Assembly: GCA_013824015.1 (NCBI GenBank) | Contig: PNNC01000093.1 | Location: 1 to 36,615, forward strand | Reading direction: 5' to 3' | DNA: 36,615 bases | DNA from: Polaromonas sp. | GTDB taxonomy: Bacteria > Pseudomonadota > Gammaproteobacteria > Burkholderiales > Burkholderiaceae_C | Shown here: piece after piece, positions 15,915-23,553 of the stretch | Layout: every line of letters begins with the position of its first letter | How positions within the stretch are numbered: position 1 is the first letter of the stretch | Made by a program: the position numbers and the translations under genes | The notes under the pieces: model-generated | Databases searched by the model: none | What the model was told of the DNA's origin: nothing | The model's input: only the letters and a program-made list of their open reading frames with translations

Positions 15915-17126
15915 TTGAAAATCACCAAAGTTGAAACCCTCAGGCTCGGCGAGTTTCCCAACATCATCTGGGTCCGGATTTACACCGACGAAGGGCTGGT
16001 CGGCCTGGGCGAGACCTTCATGGGCGCGCAGGCCGTGGAGGCCTATATCCACGAATGGGCCGGCCCCAAACTGCTGGGCAAGGACCCGCTGGCCATCGAG
16101 GCGCGCAACCGGGAACTCACCGGTTACCTCGGCTGGCGCGGCTCCGGTGTCGAGACGCGCGGCAATTCCGCGATCGACATCGCGCTGTGGGACATTTTCG
16201 GCAAGGCGGCCAACATGCCGCTGTACACCGCGCTGGGCGGGAAGAGCCGCGACAGCATACGTATCTACAACACCTGCGCCGGTTACCAGTACGTGCGCAG
16301 CACCGTGAACCAGAACACCGCCAACTGGGGCATCGGCCAGGCCAAAAAAGCCAATGCCGGGCCTTATGAGGATCTGGAAGGTTTTTTGCACCATGCTGAC
16401 GAACTCGCCGAATCGCTGCTCTCCGAAGGCGTGACCGCGATGAAGATCTGGCCCTTCGATCCGGCGGCCGAAAAAAGCGACGGCCAGTACATCAGCAACA
16501 GCGACCTCGAGCTGGCGCTGGAACCGTTTCGCAAGATACGCTCCGCGGTGGGTGAGCAAATGGACATCATGGTCGAGTTCCACAGCCTGTGGCGACTGCC
16601 GATGGCGCAAAAAATCGCGCGGGCGCTCAAGCCCTTCAACACCTTCTGGCACGAAGACGCGATCCGCATGGATTCGCTGGACCTGCTCAAGCAGTATGCG
16701 AAGGACTGCGACGCACTGATCTGCGCCAGCGAAACCCTGAGCTACAAATGGGGCTTCAAGGACTATTTGCAGACCTGCGTGGCCGGTGTCGCCATGCTGG
16801 ACCTGAGCTGGTGCGGCGGCCTGAGCGAGGCCCGCAAGATCGCCGCCATGGCCGATGCCTGGCAACTGCCGGTGGCGCCGCACGACTGCACCGGCCCGGT
16901 GGTCTGGGCCGCCTCCAGCCACCTGTCGCTGCACGCGCCGAATGCGCTGATCCAGGAAAGCGTGCGCGCTTTTTACACCGGCTGGTACAAGGAGCTGGTG
17001 ACCGAATTGCCGACTGTGACGAAGGGCATGCTCAGCCTCAATGCCAAGCCCGGGCTGGGCCTGGAATTGCTGCCCGATCTGCACCAGCGCGCCGACGCCA
17101 CCTTGCGCACCTGCCTGCCGAACTGA
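15915..17126 (+). CDS. Enolase-superfamily sugar-acid dehydratase (mandelate racemase-like), TTG start
   Basis: A 403-residue mandelate racemase/muconate lactonising enzyme family protein. Mg ligands can be placed at E221 (MVEFHS), E247 (WHEDAI) and E273 (ICASETL). H223, two residues after the first ligand, and H323 in APHDCTGP resemble the acid/base pair of DgoD-type galactonate dehydratases; a single K177 (MKIWPFD) replaces the usual K-x-K motif. It should therefore dehydrate a sugar acid to a 2-keto-3-deoxy acid; the exact substrate is not clear. The start is TTG at 15915, supported by GGAG six bases upstream and by the conserved M-K-I-T-x-V beginning. It directly follows a terminator and precedes a second enolase-superfamily gene by 21 bp. 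Confidence 0.88.
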   Translation: MKITKVETLRLGEFPNIIWVRIYTDEGLVGLGETFMGAQAVEAYIHEWAGPKLLGKDPLAIEARNRELTGYLGWRGSGVETRGNSAIDIALWDIFGKAANMPLYTALGGKSRDSIRIYNTCAGYQYVRSTVNQNTANWGIGQAKKANAGPYEDLEGFLHHADELAESLLSEGVTAMKIWPFDPAAEKSDGQYISNSDLELALEPFRKIRSAVGEQMDIMVEFHSLWRLPMAQKIARALKPFNTFWHEDAIRMDSLDLLKQYAKDCDALICASETLSYKWGFKDYLQTCVAGVAMLDLSWCGGLSEARKIAAMADAWQLPVAPHDCTGPVVWAASSHLSLHAPNALIQESVRAFYTGWYKELVTELPTVTKGMLSLNAKPGLGLELLPDLHQRADATLRTCLPN

Positions 17127-17147
17127 ACAAGAAAATCAGGAGACTTC

Positions 17148-18260
17148 ATGAAGATCACATCCGTCCGTCCTTTCATCCTGCATGTGCCGGTGACGGGCTC
17201 GCAGATCGCCGACAGCACCCACAGCATCACCCACTGGGGCGTGGTGGGCGCACAGATTGACACCGATAACGGGCTCAGCGGCTACGGTTTCACTGGCACC
17301 CACGCGCACCTGCCCAGCGACCAGCTGATCACGCGCTGTATCGAGACCTGCCACGCGCCGATGCTGATCGGCGAGGACGCCGGCGACATCAACCGCCTGT
17401 GGAAAAAACTGGCGCGCAATCCGGCGCTGCAGTGGGTAGGCCGCGCCGGCATCACCACGCTGTCACATGCCGCGATCGACCTGGCGCTGTGGGACCTCAA
17501 GGCCAAGGCCGCGCAGCAACCGCTGTGGAAACTGCTGGGCGGCCAGGTGCGCGACCGGGTCCGCGCCTACAACACCGACATCGGCTGGCTCAGCATCGCC
17601 GACGACAAGCTGGTGGAGGGGGCGCAGCGGGCGGTGGCTGACGGCTTTACCGGCATCAAGATCAAGGTCGGATCGACCGTGGAGCGCGACCTGCGGCGCC
17701 TGGCCGCGGTGCGCAAGGCGATTGGCCCGGATGTCACGCTGGCGATCGACGGCAACGGCAAGTGGGACCTGCCGACCTGCCAGCGCTTCTGCCGCGCCGC
17801 GCAGGACGCGGATGTGTTCTGGTTCGAGGAGCCGCTCTGGCATGACGACGTGAAGGGCCATGCGCAGCTGGCGCGCGCCACGTCGATACCGGTCGCGCTG
17901 GGCGAGCAGCTCTACACCGTCGATGCGTTTTCCGAATTTTTTGCGCAGCAGGCGATTCATTGGGTGCAGCCCGACGTCACGCGAATGGCCGGCCTGACCG
18001 AGGTGTTGCGTGTCTGCGAAACCGCGCATGCCTTCCGCCTGCCGGTGGCGCCGCACGCGGGTGACATGAGCCAGGTGCATGTGCACCTGTCGTATGCACA
18101 CCCGGCCTGCGAGGTGCTCGAATTCATCCCCTGGATCAAGGACTGTTTCACCGACCCGGCCGAGGTGGTGGATGGCTACTTCCGCCGCCCCGAGTTGCCA
18201 GGCGCCGGCACCACGCCGACGTCCGCCGCCTGGACGCAGTTCAGGCAGGCGACCGCCTGA
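17148..18260 (+). CDS. Enolase-superfamily dehydratase (mandelate racemase/galactarate-talarate type)
   Basis: A 370-residue enolase-superfamily enzyme of the mandelate racemase subgroup. K171-x-K173 (GIKIKVGS) is on the second strand of the barrel, the metal ligands are D201 (AIDGNGKW), E227 (FEEPLW) and E253 (LGEQLY), and D276 with H303 (APHAGD) forms the second base dyad. This K/H pairing is that of L-talarate/galactarate dehydratase and related acid-sugar dehydratases, which is my best guess. It is clearly different from the gene upstream, with which it shares only distant similarity, so the two probably act on different sugar acids or epimers. A GGAG precedes the ATG. Confidence 0.88.
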
Positions 18261-18302
18261 GGCCCGCGGGACGTCTCCACGCGAAGGGCAAAATAAGCGG
18301 TG

Positions 18303-18824
18303 ATGAATTCCGATATTTTTGTGGTCATGGGCGTCAGCGGCTGCGGCAAAAGCACCGTGGGCGCGCAGCTGGCCGAGGCCTTGAAGCTGCCGTTTCTGGA
18401 GGGTGACTTGTTGCACCCGGAGCGCAATGTGCAGCGCATGGCCGCTGGTGTTGCGCTGAGCGATGAAGATCGCGAGGGCTGGTTGCAGGCGCTGGCCGAA
18501 CGCCTGCGCCAGGCGCAAGCGGCAGGGCAGGGAATGGTGCTGTCGTGTTCGGCGCTCAAGCGCGCTTACCGCGACATCCTGCGCAGCGGCGCACCGGACC
18601 TGCGTTTTGTCTATCTGCACGGTGACCAGGCGCTGCTGGCAGCCCGCATGGCGGCACGCACGGGCCATTACATGCCCTTGTCGCTGCTGGACAGCCAGCT
18701 GGCCACGCTGGAGCCGCCCGGCGTGGACGAGAATGTGCTGGGCTTTCAGGTTGCCAGTCGGCCTGAAGATATCGTGGCCGCCGTGCTGGCTGGCCGGCAT
18801 GCAGGCGCCGGCAGCGCGTCCTGA
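18303..18824 (+). CDS. gntK: Gluconokinase
   Basis: A 173-residue P-loop kinase of the GntK/thermoresistant gluconokinase family. The Walker A motif GVSGCGKST is at residues 10-18, followed by the substrate-binding EGDLLHPERNVQRMAAG (about 33-49) and SCSALKRAYRDILR (about 80-93), all diagnostic. It transfers phosphate from ATP to gluconate, giving 6-phosphogluconate. A GTG at 18300 could add one residue; the ATG is preferred. It sits 42 bp after the second enolase-superfamily gene. A gluconate enzyme beside galactonate genes suggests the locus serves several aldonic acids. Confidence 0.9.
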   Translation: MNSDIFVVMGVSGCGKSTVGAQLAEALKLPFLEGDLLHPERNVQRMAAGVALSDEDREGWLQALAERLRQAQAAGQGMVLSCSALKRAYRDILRSGAPDLRFVYLHGDQALLAARMAARTGHYMPLSLLDSQLATLEPPGVDENVLGFQVASRPEDIVAAVLAGRHAGAGSAS

Positions 18825-18869
18825 ACGGTGCGCAGCCCGATTCCGATTCACTTTTCTCCTGGACCGACC

Positions 18870-19253
18870 ATGACAGTTTTCACCAAAGTCATTCTTTACA
18901 CCGACACCGATGGCCGCGCCAGATTCCGCGAGGAGGCGCTGGCGCTCAGCGAAGGCTCGCCGCAGGCGATGTTGTCGCCGCTGGCGCCTTCGAGCGGCTA
19001 CCAGTTGCGCCACAGCCCGGTGGGTTTCCGCAGCCAGTTCCACTGCACGCCGAAACCGCAATGGGTGTTCATTCTGGGCGGGCAGATGGAAATCGGCCTG
19101 CAGGGCGGGGTGTCGCGGGTGTTCGGCCCGGGTGAGCATTTCTATTCTGCCGACGTGTTGCCGGAAGGCGCCACTTTTGACGCGACGCTGCACGGCCACT
19201 GGAGCCGACAGGTCGGGCCGGATCCGCTGGTCACCCTGTTTTTGCAGGGCTGA
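18870..19253 (+). CDS. Small cupin-domain protein
   Basis: A 127-residue single-domain cupin-like protein. The middle reads H-C-T-P-K-P-Q-W-V-F-I-L-G-G-Q-M-E-I, then FGPGEHFYSADVLPEGATF, an R-S-D-type beta-barrel pattern. The first motif's histidine (H65-like) and the G-E-H in the second are candidate metal ligands. The start at 18870 has a GGA six bases upstream; a 14-codon longer frame is open but lacks a better signal. As the last gene of the plus arm it may be an isomerase or sugar-acid-binding accessory, but no activity can be assigned. Confidence 0.75.
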   Translation: MTVFTKVILYTDTDGRARFREEALALSEGSPQAMLSPLAPSSGYQLRHSPVGFRSQFHCTPKPQWVFILGGQMEIGLQGGVSRVFGPGEHFYSADVLPEGATFDATLHGHWSRQVGPDPLVTLFLQG

Positions 19254-19330: not shown

Positions 19331-20137
19331 TCAGCGCGGCTGCATGTCGCCCGACAGCAGCACGGTCTGGCCTGGGCGACCTGCCAGGACGCCGTTCACG
19401 AGCGCAGCGGCCACGTCCGCTGCGTCAATCGCGCGGTAGTTGGCGGGGGTCAGCGGCCTGAGCAGGCGCATGGCCGCCGCTGCGAATTTTTCTGCGGCAC
19501 GCTGGGGCTGGCCCAGGGTGCTGCGGTCACCACTGAGCAGCGAGGGGCGGGCCAGCACCACCGTGTCATAACCGAGCTGGCCGGCGGCAGCTTCCATCTC
19601 GCCCTTGACGCGGTTGTAAAACACGCTGGAGCTGGCACTGGCGCCCATGGCGCTGACGAGGCCCAGCCGGCGCGCGCCGGCGGCACGCGCCGAGCGCGCC
19701 ACGGCCAGCACCGCGTCGAAATCGACGGCGCGGAAAGCGGGCTGGCTGCCCGCGACCTTGATGGTGGTGCCCAGCGCGATGAACACGTCGTCCACCGCGG
19801 GCGCCTCGAATGTAGCGAAGTCCGCGATGACGTGGACTTGCAGTTTGGGATGGGTGATCCCGGGTGGGCGCCGGCCCACACAGTGGACCGCCGCGTAGCT
19901 TTTATCGGCCAGTAAACGAGCCAGAATTTCCCGACCGACCAGACCCGTTGCCCCGGCCACCAGCGCCACCCGAGCGTCCGCCGCCACCACCGCCGCCGGC
20001 AGGACGGCCGCCGCCGCGGTAGTTGCCGCGGTTGCCGCCTGTGGGCTGGCCGGAAGAGGGGAAGCCGGAAGAGACATGGCTGGTGGGCTGGGCATCGCCG
20101 CGTTCCTGGGGTTCGCGCTGACGTGGGGGTTGGTCAT
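19331..20137 (-). CDS. NAD(P)-binding Rossmann oxidoreductase (atypical SDR, NmrA/TIP30-like), overlapping rhlE
   Basis: A 268-residue protein. The dinucleotide motif GATGLVG is at residues 62-68 (19934-19954), followed by an atypical-SDR core with [29 protein letters not shown] and the active-site-like Y-N-R-V-K-G-E-M-E. It is a NAD(P)H-binding epimerase/reductase-like protein of unknown substrate. The ATG at 20137 is preferred because GAGGAA lies five bases upstream. It gives a 55-residue Ala/Pro-rich leader, so a later start is possible (for example a GTG near 19990). With any reasonable start, the gene begins inside the helicase gene in another frame; the Rossmann motif and the helicase RGG tail share DNA. 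Overlap is 236 bp with the chosen start. Confidence 0.8.
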
Positions 20138-21605
20138 TGGAGTTCCTCGCCTGATGTTGTGCAGGCTGTCCACCATAACCGGAATTCTGGCGCGGCTGGC
20201 CGCCCTGGGGCTGGCTGCGGCCACCATTGCCGCCACCGCCGTTGCGGCCGCGACCGCCACCACCATTGCCTCCGCCATTGCCGCCACCACCGCCGGCGTT
20301 GCCGCCACGGCCGGTCTGCGGCTTGTTTTCGCGGATGCGGTTCATCATTTCGCTGCGGGCGGCCTTGGCGGCGGCCTGCATCACGTCCCGGCTTGGCGGC
20401 TTGCCAATGCCGCCCCAGATGGTCTGGTGGCCCATCGCCAGCGGCTCGGCTTTTTCGCCGGGCTCGGCTTCAAAACCGGGCACGGTGACTTTTTCGATGT
20501 TCTGTTTGGTGAAACGCTCGATGTCCTGCATGAAGCCTTCTTCGTCCAGGCAGACCAGGCTCACCGCCTCGCCGCTGTTGCCGGCGCGGCCGGTGCGGCC
20601 GATACGGTGGACGTAGTCTTCGCTGACGTTGGGGATTTCATAGTTGACGACATGCGGCAGTTCGTCGATGTCGATGCCGCGCGCGGCGATATCGGTGGCC
20701 ACCAGCGCGCGGATGCTGCCGCTCTTGAAGTCGGCCAGCGCCTGGGTGCGGGCGGTCTGGCTCTTGTTGCCGTGCAGCGCCATCGCCGGGATGCCGTTTT
20801 TGGTCAGGTGTTCGGCCACATTGTTGGCGCCGAACTTGGTGCGGGTGAACACCAGCACCTGGCTCCAGTTGTGCTCGTTGATGATGTGGGTGAGCAGGGC
20901 TTTTTTCTTGCCACGGCCGACCGGGTGGATGGTCTGCGTGATGCGCTGCACCGTGGTGTTGCGCGGCGTGACCTGGATGCTTTGCGGGTTTTTCAGCAGG
21001 CCGTTGGCCAGCTCGCGGATCTCGTCGCTGAAGGTGGCGGAAAACAGCAGCGACTGCTTCTGCTTGGGCACCAGCGCCAGCACCTTCTTGATGTCATGGA
21101 TGAAACCCATGTCCAGCATGCGGTCGGCTTCGTCGAGCACCAGCATCTGCACCTGGCCGAGGTCCAGCGTGCCCTGGCTGGCGTGGTCCAGCAGGCGGCC
21201 GGGGGTGGCCACCAGGATGTCGACGCCGCGGCGCAGTTTTTCAATCTGCGCGCCCATGCCGACGCCGCCGAACATCACCATGGAGCTGAGCTCCAGGTAC
21301 TTGCCGTAAACGCGCACACTTTCCTCGACCTGCGCCGCGAGTTCGCGCGTCGGGGTCATGATCAGGCAGCGAACGGCATTGACGCCGCGCTTGTTTTTCA
21401 GCGAAGGCTCGCTGGACAGGCGTTGCAGCATCGGCAGCACAAAGGCCGCAGTTTTGCCGGTGCCGGTCTGGGCGCCGCCCAGAAGATCACCGCCTGCAAG
21501 CACGGCGGGAATCGCCTGGGCCTGGATCGGGGTGGGGGTGTCATAGCCCTGCTCAAGCACGGCTTTAAGAATGGCCGGAGCCAGATTCAGATTTTCAAAG
21601 GTCAT
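19902..21605 (-). CDS. rhlE: DEAD-box ATP-dependent RNA helicase (RhlE type)
   Basis: A 567-residue DEAD-box helicase that remodels RNA in degradation and ribosome maturation. The motifs are in order: Q motif ending TPTPIQ (about 22-27), AQTGTGKT (motif I), TPTRELA (Ia), DEAD (II), SAT (III), and [11 protein letters not shown] and HRIGRTGR (V, VI) near 310-350. From about residue 430 to the end is a low-complexity Gly/Arg/Asn/Gln tail with many RGG-like steps, typical of RNA-binding tails of RhlE proteins. The last 78 codons are shared with the start of the oxidoreductase gene. It is divergent from ettA over a 286-bp gap, the longest gene-free interval outside the left end. Confidence 0.93.
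20143..20148 (-). promoter_or_regulatory. Ribosome binding site that decides the oxidoreductase start
   Basis: On the minus strand GAGGAA precedes the ATG at 20137 with a 5-nt spacer, and lies inside the helicase coding region. It is the only good Shine-Dalgarno sequence near any candidate start of the oxidoreductase. Confidence 0.5.
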
Positions 21606-21891
21606 TTTTTTGCACTGCTGGAGTGCTCAGGATCGGCCTGTGGGAGCTTGTGGGCATCCCGCCAGTCAAAGGCAGATTGGGGTCAGGAGTTGGGCCAAAA
21701 ACACCCTGAATCGTTGCCGATACTGTCACAGAGGTGTGCCCGAATGTTGCAGGCAACTGGAGCGAGCAACAGGGGTATTGTCGCACGGAACGATAATCGG
21801 GGGATTGCCGCAAAAAAATCGCCGAAAATCAACGGCTGGCTTGCGCTCACGCCTTTCTTTTGTTGTCCCTCCTTTTTAGAAGTTGATCCTG
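21606..21891. other. Divergent intergenic region between rhlE and ettA
   Basis: This 286-bp region must hold promoters for both genes. I found no pair of -35/-10 boxes with acceptable spacing. A short GTTGC/GCAAC inverted repeat near 21746-21757 is the only structure noticed. Length and position would suit a long helicase leader of the kind seen for cold-shock helicases, but nothing in the sequence demonstrates this. Confidence 0.4.
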
Positions 21892-23553
21892 ATGGCCCAG
21901 TACGTTTTCACCATGAACAAGGTCGGCAAAGTTGTGCCGCCCAAGCGTCAGATCCTCAAGGATGTGTCGCTCAGCTTTTTCCCCGGCGCCAAGATCGGCG
22001 TGCTGGGCACCAACGGCTCCGGCAAGTCCACCCTGCTCAAGATCATGGCCGGCCTGGACAAGGAGATCGAGGGTGAAGCCACCCCGATGCCGAACCTGAA
22101 CATCGGCTACCTGCCGCAGGAGCCCAAGCTCGACCCGACCCACACGGTGCGCGAAAGCGTCGAAGCCGGCATGGGCGCGGTGTTTGCCGCCAAGGCGCAG
22201 CTGGAAGCGGTGTACACCGCCTATGCCGAGCCGGATGCCGATTTTGATGCGCTGGCCGCCGAACAGGCGCGCCTGGAAGCCATCATTGCGACGTCCGGTT
22301 CCGACTCCGAGCACCAGCTCGAGATCGCCGCCGACGCGCTGCGCCTGCCGCCCTGGGATGCGGTGATCGGTGTGTTGTCGGGCGGTGAAAAGCGACGCGT
22401 TGCGCTGTGCAGCCTGCTGCTGTCCAAGCCCGACATGCTGCTGCTTGACGAGCCGACCAACCACCTGGACGCCGAATCGGTGGACTGGCTGGAGCAGTTC
22501 CTGCAGCGTTACCCGGGCACCGTGGTGGCCATCACCCATGACCGCTACTTTCTCGACAACGCCGCCGAGTGGATTCTGGAGCTGGACCGTGGCCGTGGCA
22601 TCCCCTGGAAGGGCAACTACAGCACCTGGCTGGAGCAAAAGGGCGAACGCCTGGCGCAGGAGCAAAAGGGCGAGGAAGCCCGCGCCAAGGCCTTGAAGAA
22701 AGAACTCGAATGGTCGCGGCAGAACCCGAAAGCGCGCCAGGCCAAGAGCAAGTCGCGGCTGGCCCGTTTCGAGGAGCTGTCCGATTTTGAATACCAGCAG
22801 CGCAATGAAACCCAGGAGATTTTCATCCCGGTGGCCGAGCGCCTGGGCAATGAGGTCATCGAGTTCAAGAATGTCAGCAAGTCCTTTGGCGACCGCCTGC
22901 TGATCGACAACCTGAGCTTCAAGATTCCGGCCGGCGCGATTGTCGGCATCATCGGCCCGAACGGCGCCGGCAAATCGACGCTGTTCAAGCTGATCGCCGG
23001 CAAGGAGCAGCCCGACAGCGGCGAGGTGGTGATCGGCAAAACCGCGCGCATGGCTTTTGTGGACCAGCACCGCGATGACCTCGCCAACGAAAAAACTGTC
23101 TGGGAAGACATTTCCGGCGGGCTCGACCTGCTGACCGTCGGCAAGTTCACCATGCCCAGCCGCGCTTATGCGGGGCGCTTCAACTTCAACGGCGCCGACC
23201 AGCAAAAACGGGTGGGCACGCTGTCCGGTGGCGAGCGTGGCCGCCTGCACCTGGCCAAAACCCTGATTGCCGGCGGCAATGTGCTGATGCTCGACGAGCC
23301 GTCCAACGACCTCGACGTGGAAACCCTGCGCTCACTGGAAGACGCCTTGCTCGAGTTCGCCGGCTCCATCATGGTGATCAGCCATGACCGCTGGTTCCTG
23401 GACCGCATCGCGACCCACATCCTCGCCGCTGAAGGCGACAGCCAGTGGACCTTCTTCGATGGCAACTACCAGGAATATGAAGCCGACAAGAAGAAGCGCC
23501 TCGGTGAAGAGGGTGCCAAGCCCAAGCGTATGCGTTTCAAGGCGCTGAAATAA
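21892..23553 (+). CDS. ettA: Energy-dependent translational throttle protein EttA (ABC-F)
   Basis: A 553-residue ABC-F ATPase that binds the ribosomal E site and gates the first elongation steps according to the ADP/ATP ratio. It has two ABC domains and no membrane segment. Walker A motifs are GTNGSGKST (39-47) and GPNGAGKST (near 358-366), and the signatures LSGGEKRR and LSGGERGR precede Walker B LLLDEPTNH and LMLDEPSND. The inter-domain P-site tRNA interaction linker contains the Lys/Arg-rich QNPKARQAKSKSRLARFEEL, and RFKALK closes the protein as usual. The ATG at 21892 gives the family length; a TTG three codons earlier is less likely. Confidence 0.96.
   Translation: MAQYVFTMNKVGKVVPPKRQILKDVSLSFFPGAKIGVLGTNGSGKSTLLKIMAGLDKEIEGEATPMPNLNIGYLPQEPKLDPTHTVRESVEAGMGAVFAAKAQLEAVYTAYAEPDADFDALAAEQARLEAIIATSGSDSEHQLEIAADALRLPPWDAVIGVLSGGEKRRVALCSLLLSKPDMLLLDEPTNHLDAESVDWLEQFLQRYPGTVVAITHDRYFLDNAAEWILELDRGRGIPWKGNYSTWLEQKGERLAQEQKGEEARAKALKKELEWSRQNPKARQAKSKSRLARFEELSDFEYQQRNETQEIFIPVAERLGNEVIEFKNVSKSFGDRLLIDNLSFKIPAGAIVGIIGPNGAGKSTLFKLIAGKEQPDSGEVVIGKTARMAFVDQHRDDLANEKTVWEDISGGLDLLTVGKFTMPSRAYAGRFNFNGADQQKRVGTLSGGERGRLHLAKTLIAGGNVLMLDEPSNDLDVETLRSLEDALLEFAGSIMVISHDRWFLDRIATHILAAEGDSQWTFFDGNYQEYEADKKKRLGEEGAKPKRMRFKALK

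Follow-up and report, generated by a model that had tools for sequence, protein, structure and literature searches.

In a survey of 715 prokaryotic co-directional overlaps longer than 60 bp, none was accepted as real, and the longest real co-directional case given there is holD-rimI, of up to 56 bp (PMC2478687). Like the locus described here, in which the end of a helicase gene (rhlE) lies on the start of a gene for a NAD(P)-binding protein (ox), holD-rimI of Enterobacteria is co-directional, out-of-frame and kept across genera, with one protein's end on another's start. However, holD-rimI spans 32-56 bp (PMC2478687), whereas the rhlE/ox overlap is at least 71 nt long, runs over a cofactor-binding motif, has a measured two-frame constraint and has apparently left a surviving tail. 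A second described system, rnpA-rpmH of Thermus, also yields two out-of-frame proteins from one stretch of bacterial mRNA (PMC9841429, citing Feltens 2003). In that pair one gene lies wholly inside the other, the two start codons are neighbours and a single Shine-Dalgarno sequence is present (PMC9841429), whereas in rhlE/ox the overlap is terminal and the second gene would start within the first. The presumed mode of origin of rhlE/ox is that of 3'-extension overlaps (class iii of PMC2478687; modelled in PMC3887535). Such overlaps of more than 60 bp are treated as error in PMC2478687, while rhlE/ox is kept across genera. No earlier report of the rhlE/ox overlap was found among the literature matches listed, which were mainly openly available papers.

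On sequence evidence, we consider it highly probable that rhlE/ox is a true conserved co-directional out-of-frame overlap, whose tail arose from loss of the rhlE stop and has been held by selection on both proteins, ox having later been lost or separated in some lineages.

The two genes and their shared segment

Both genes lie on the minus strand of the window (the whole stretch of DNA analysed, 36,615 nt), in frames one base apart, with the following features; ox codons and residues are numbered from the first codon of its motif.

19902..21605, minus strand: rhlE, DEAD-box RNA helicase of RhlE type with a Gly/Arg/Asn-rich tail, 567 aa (PF00270 and PF00271)
19331..20137, minus strand: ox, NAD(P)-binding protein, 268 aa with the ATG at 20137 (PF13460)
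onset near 19972, minus strand: conserved core of ox
19902..19976, minus strand: dual-constraint segment, the last 24 rhlE codons and stop, equal to ox codons of about -7 to +17
19934..19954, minus strand: GATGLVG dinucleotide-binding motif of ox, where the rhlE frame reads Gly/Arg/Asn/Ser tail
19902..19904, minus strand: rhlE stop TAA, made up of one base (the third) of an ox Asp codon and two of the Lys codon that follows
20135..20137, minus strand: candidate ox start ATG, codon -61
20143..20148, minus strand: Shine-Dalgarno-like GAGGAA for the ATG at 20137, within rhlE (duplex -7.2 kcal/mol)
20093..20095, minus strand: other in-frame ox ATG, codon -47
20075..20077, minus strand: other in-frame ox ATG, codon -41

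Both helicase domains scored above the Pfam cut-off (PF00270, 171.3 bits; PF00271, 102.6 bits). The top NCBIfam model, NF007882 (RhlE), reached 618 bits, under its cut-off of 743, and the helicase is therefore named only as RhlE-type. The product of ox matched PF13460 with 29.6 bits (cut-off 27.2) and had no NCBIfam match; its solved relatives are PDB 2a35 (PA4017, E 4.6e-37) and TIP30 (2bka, E 2.8e-16).

A first-pass annotation of this DNA had described both frames as open over 19902-20137 on one strand, one base apart, with the GATGLVG of the second gene at 19954-19934 overlapped by the helicase frame and a GAGGAA upstream of the ATG at 20137 within rhlE; inspection of the sequence confirmed each of these, the GAGGAA lying at 20148-20143. 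The helicase frame reads 53 nt beyond the base that opens the GATGLVG codons. With the ATG at 20137 as the ox start the dual-coding length would be 236 nt. The annotation's figure of at least about 85 bp dual-coding whatever the start was too high, as a GTG at ox codon -5 or -2 would give 68 or 59 nt; the supported minimum is about 71 nt.

Two long ORFs, 20076-22076 on the plus strand (666 aa) and 17463-19199 on the minus strand (578 aa), lie antisense to rhlE and to genes beyond ox, and are probably by-products of GC-rich codon use. On the plus strand, going by the translations, a probable gluconokinase-type kinase (P-loop; 18300-18824) comes after two probable enolase-superfamily-like dehydratases (15915-18260); convergent with ox, they likely form a sugar-acid catabolic cluster.

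Position of the rhlE stop in relatives

Homologues of ox were found in 169 genomes, and loci from 90 of them were examined. The 200 loci gathered included 181 with a good ox match, of which 162 were distinct. Comparing RhlE tail length and stop across these orthologous loci, as the first-pass annotation had proposed, revealed that rhlE ends at the same base, exactly 53 nt from the first GATGLVG base (+53), in 76 of the 162; conservation in orthologues, the criterion applied in PMC2478687, is thus found for rhlE/ox. The stop lay past the motif start in 78 distinct loci, 76 at this base and two 30 nt earlier (+23); in the remainder rhlE ended 30-147 nt before the motif (27 loci) or farther away, had no copy within reach, or the available sequence was too short. 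With duplicates still included, 9/30 nearest-relative, 45/80 named and 36/90 family-sample loci belonged to the +53 class. The class covered 20 genus codes in the family sample; among its named members are Polaromonas (including the laboratory strain Polaromonas sp. JS666, locus L048), Rhodoferax, Ramlibacter, Hydrogenophaga and Curvibacter. The named relatives put the window in Polaromonas or close to it. Since one and the same stop base turns up across many independent assemblies, a one-base assembly error in the tail is excluded.

For comparison, 76 overlap loci were set against 73 non-overlap loci, leaving out nine with short upstream sequence, two without the motif and the two with the stop at +23 (76 + 73 + 9 + 2 + 2 = 162). 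Two of the nine short loci, L095 and L049, also have their first stop at +53, and the tail of L095 is overlap-like as well. The two +23 loci (L062 and L073) represent a second version of the overlap, with GGT AAA in the ox frame and RhlE ends of GYRSGR or GFRSGR, again an aromatic residue plus Arg.

The conserved stop straddles two ox codons: its T is the last base of one, and its AA, AG or GA opens the next. It is kept across the ox residue pairs D-K, D-D, D-R, D-S, D-N, D-E, G-N, G-K, A-E and A-D (e.g. GGT AAC or GCT GAA). The second residue of the pair is Lys in 52 of the 76 overlap loci, whereas Pro is commonest in the non-overlap loci (27/73), and the first stop in the rhlE-equivalent frame falls at +53 in only 8 of the 73 non-overlap homologues. 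The recurrence of the +53 stop exceeds chance.

In outgroup pairs the two genes lie side by side with rhlE ending before the ox motif (Ottowia-type L056 and L145, and a second group ending PKR or KPR). In the non-overlapping, Ramlibacter-like loci L078 and L084, continuing the rhlE frame beyond its own stop leads exactly to the one at +53, so loss of a stop is a sufficient route to the overlap. Among the 182 genomes with rhlE matches, 70 were examined. A further set comprised 55 loci with no ox beside rhlE, as judged from about 1.5 kb downstream, supplemented by a whole-genome search for 15 genomes; the 55 include one cut by a contig end (L268) and two with odd ends (L207 and L258). Two RhlE-core trees with SH-aLRT support were weakly resolved, with 44 of 100 inner branches open in one and 34 of 91 in the other, which kept 6 of the 23 Polaromonas-type loci. 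Separated and ox-less loci were placed among overlap loci in these trees, the ox-less L220, L225 and L228 falling in starred clades with overlap loci. The first-pass annotation had named relatives with ox after the helicase stop, together with an assembly error, as grounds for rejecting the overlap; such relatives exist, yet the overlap stands, because they are either outgroups or placed among overlap loci.

By parsimony the overlap label needs 11 and 23 changes on the two trees, high counts that favour repeated gain of the +53 overlap over one gain with several losses or separations. Against repeated gain stand the identical stop base and the similar third-base choices and tails throughout, and the tail, unchanged in register, of some separated or ox-less loci that are placed among the overlap loci. 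We therefore regard repeated gain as unlikely, and a single gain followed by several losses or separations would better account for the distribution.

Constraint in both frames and the start of ox

Overlap loci were sorted by their tail and ox residue -5 into types that we label A (Polaromonas-like, 23 loci), B (Rhodoferax/Curvibacter-like, 33) and C (Ramlibacter/Hydrogenophaga-like, 20). In the RhlE frame, fourfold-site difference over the last 24 codons was 0.095 in the 23 Polaromonas-type loci and 0.098 in the other 53 overlap loci, counted ungapped from the stop with pair counts pooled and kinship ignored. Over codons 25-40 it rose to 0.375 and 0.589, respectively, although codons upstream of 24 may be misaligned since the counting is ungapped in a variable Gly-rich tail. 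The 55 loci without adjoining ox, taken as a control, gave 0.505 and 0.509 over the same two stretches. A gapped comparison placed the edge of constraint at the same point; in it, two of the three 8-codon tail blocks of the Polaromonas-type loci (0.167 and 0.129) were little below the slowest helicase-core blocks (0.167-0.183).

In the ox frame, the ratio of fourfold-site difference in codons 0-15 to that downstream was 0.68 in overlap loci and 0.96 in non-overlap loci. Slow synonymous change is common at the 5' ends of genes (PMC12725619), but it does not explain the constraint on ox, because the non-overlap ratio is 0.96. The test of synonymous constraint proposed by the first-pass annotation thus gave the same answer in each frame (about 0.10 against 0.38-0.59 in the rhlE tail; 0.68 against 0.96 in ox). 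With non-overlap and ox-less loci as controls, and with pair counts that ignore kinship, both readings of the shared DNA appear to be under selection.

The third bases of ox are the first bases of RhlE codons, and in overlap loci they are shifted relative to non-overlap homologues, toward Gly, Asn/Tyr and Phe in RhlE. The codon of the first motif glycine is GGG in 69 of 76 overlap loci versus 8 of 73 non-overlap loci. The RhlE-frame Gly count averages 10.1 in overlap loci, 6.6 in synonymous shuffles and 3.5 in non-overlap loci, exceeding z = 2 in 50/76 overlap loci and 0/73 controls. One of the final four RhlE residues is aromatic in 64 of 76 overlap loci (the third-last in 41, the fourth-last in 23), compared with 4.3% of synonymous shuffles and 2/73 non-overlap loci, and the final residue is Arg in 76/76, against 57% in shuffles and 44/73 in non-overlap loci. 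Many Comamonadaceae RhlE tails, whether overlapping, separated or ox-less, close with an aromatic residue, at most three more residues and a final Arg, however these are encoded.

If selection acted on ox alone, the RhlE tail would be a passive read-through of the ox frame, and its low complexity, together with the freezing of RhlE third positions that ox by itself would cause, agrees with this. The shifted ox third bases, the excess of Gly and the Phe/Tyr near the end run against a passive tail, as does the finding that 12 of the 55 tails without adjoining ox, though not the majority of them, resemble those of overlap loci more closely than their composition would give (p <= 0.007); a passive tail is accordingly very improbable. 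Selection on both proteins remains the preferred reading, and the edge of constraint bears on where ox begins.

That edge coincides with ox residue -6, which is Arg in 76/76 overlap loci, and the fourfold difference at RhlE codon -23, which covers this Arg, is nil; translation of ox should therefore begin above -6, making at least 71 nt dual-coding. A start at the GTG of codon -5, present in 53/76 loci, is disfavoured by the Arg at -6 and by the invariant fourfold site of RhlE codon -23, and the same Arg argues against the GTG at codon -2. For type B, an ox-frame ATG with a Shine-Dalgarno (SD) value of -8 or below lies within the rhlE tail in 33/33 loci, versus 5/55 tails without adjoining ox. 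For type A, an ATG with SD <= -6 occurs in 18/23 loci, at codons -43 to -61, versus 12/55 loci without adjoining ox; for type C, it occurs in 6/20, and 11/20 have no start of any kind with SD <= -6 above residue -6. Among 72 ox genes without the overlap, a start of any kind with SD <= -6 is present in only 15, which makes the SD a weak guide to where ox begins. The ATG at 20137 with its GAGGAA, put forward in the first-pass annotation, is a plausible start in that it belongs to the 18 of 23 type A cases, but the leader that it would add lacks clear ox-frame constraint: between the upstream ATGs and residue -6 none was found in gapped or ungapped comparisons.

Production of ox solely as a RhlE-ox fusion through +1 frameshifting in the overlap, with no start of its own, would suit the +1 frame of ox, the open ox frame above the motif (median 133 codons in Polaromonas-type and 97 in type C loci) and the type C loci lacking such a start, but is scarcely credible given the well-placed ATG and strong SD of all type B loci, whose ox frame is closed further up (median 41 codons).

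Tails kept without ox and the age of the overlap

Whole-genome searches of 15 genomes chosen by eye for overlap-like tails found no ox at E <= 1e-15 in 13, two of which are 65% and 87% complete; in the other two, G121 and G062, an ox-like gene is present at another place in the genome. G121 (loci L118 and L228) carries ox and rhlE on different contigs, and its ox DNA is identical to that of the non-overlapping locus L059; its rhlE tail is overlap-like (p 0.000), and its RhlE core groups with the overlap loci L039, L114 and L116. Compared with overlap tails, the tail of ox-less L220 gave p 0.027. The separated loci L084, L078, L067, L079, L088 and L139 match overlap tails (p 0.000-0.017, 300 shuffles), and the tails of L076, L082, L093, L159 and L162 gave no match (p 0.11 or more, 300 shuffles). 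Separation in Ramlibacter through duplication of the overlap segment is suggestive only. When seven separated tails and twelve from ox-less or distant-ox loci were read in their other frame, no clear trace of the ox protein was seen.

The most telling tail is that of L214, whose genome (99% complete) has no ox at E <= 1e-15. This tail shares 22 of 24 residues with overlap locus L094, from which L214 stands apart in the RhlE tree (it groups weakly with L099, L150 and L153), and 17 of the 22 identical residues differ in codon, against a mean of 2.4 codon changes among 28 pairs of eight overlap loci. The L214 tail, picked as the best of 55, could be encoded at 17/17 positions in the other frame of the non-overlapping ox genes L067 and L093; these were the two best-fitting of the nine ox proteins compared, and the seven others allow 12-16/17. 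The chance of a random Gly-rich tail fitting L067 or L093 at 17/17 is 8e-9 to 9e-9; with residues pooled over non-overlap ox homologues, the chance of the L214 fit becomes 4e-4. Because the peptide was kept with its codons reset, and fits L067 and L093 throughout, it is consistent with a tail born from ox and outliving it. The RhlE tail was thus probably born from ox and kept after ox left, L214 carrying most of the weight, and some present-day species without an ox gene seem to retain it.

The converse, that the RhlE tail predates the overlap and ox slid into it later, would account for similar tails at loci without adjoining ox, and besides L214 six other kept tails fit the ox frame at only 11-14/17, as random tails do. 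The fit of L214, at a chance of about 1e-8, opposes an older tail, as do the best p of 0.017 against overlap tails among 19 order-level outgroup tails (from 17 genomes) and the different ends of the Ottowia-type neighbours L056 and L145; we give this order of events very little credence.

We therefore return to a tail generated by the overlap itself. Under this model, an ancestral rhlE would have lost its own stop, so that its reading continued in the alternative frame of the adjacent ox, after which synonymous changes in ox may have tuned the tail to be Gly-rich and Phe-bearing. At present, ribosomes on rhlE would traverse the opening codons of the ox core before terminating at the fixed codon 53 nt past the onset of GATGLVG. 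Other ribosomes would begin in the +1 frame, using a start codon for ox within the Gly-rich end of rhlE and probably guided by an SD in two of the three lineage types. The shared 71-75 nt would be kept by selection on both proteins, encoding in ox the predicted first strand and cofactor loop. In RhlE they would encode a tail rich in Gly, Arg and Asn, with Arg as its final residue and, as a rule, Phe at three or four residues from the C-terminus; this tail may serve in RNA binding or partner contact. In some lineages ox would later have disappeared or become separate from rhlE, the tail peptide staying on with free codon choice. The first-pass annotation had attributed the overlap to loss of the helicase stop by slippage in GGN repeats, with extension of the tail into its neighbour. 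Extension of the tail agrees with the outgroups that end before the motif and with the read-through of L078 and L084; slippage and a recent or local event find no support, the overlap being old and spread through the family.

The locus would accordingly set an overlap of at least 71 nt, present in 20 genus codes and with constraint measured in two frames, beside a survey in which none above 60 bp was accepted (PMC2478687). Under an annotation rule by which any overlap above 60 bp counts as an error, the start of ox could be placed wrongly. A relative freed of the overlap, with changed codons and a kept peptide, provides a natural control, and the locus offers a tractable system for the origin, upkeep and resolution of overlaps, and for the way in which the other frame of an enzyme can build a low-complexity helicase tail. 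It probably preserves the full life history of a gene overlap: stop loss, tuning in two frames across the radiation of a family, and escape by loss or separation of the enzyme gene with the tail kept. If this is true, a protein segment born by overprinting has outlived its parent gene.
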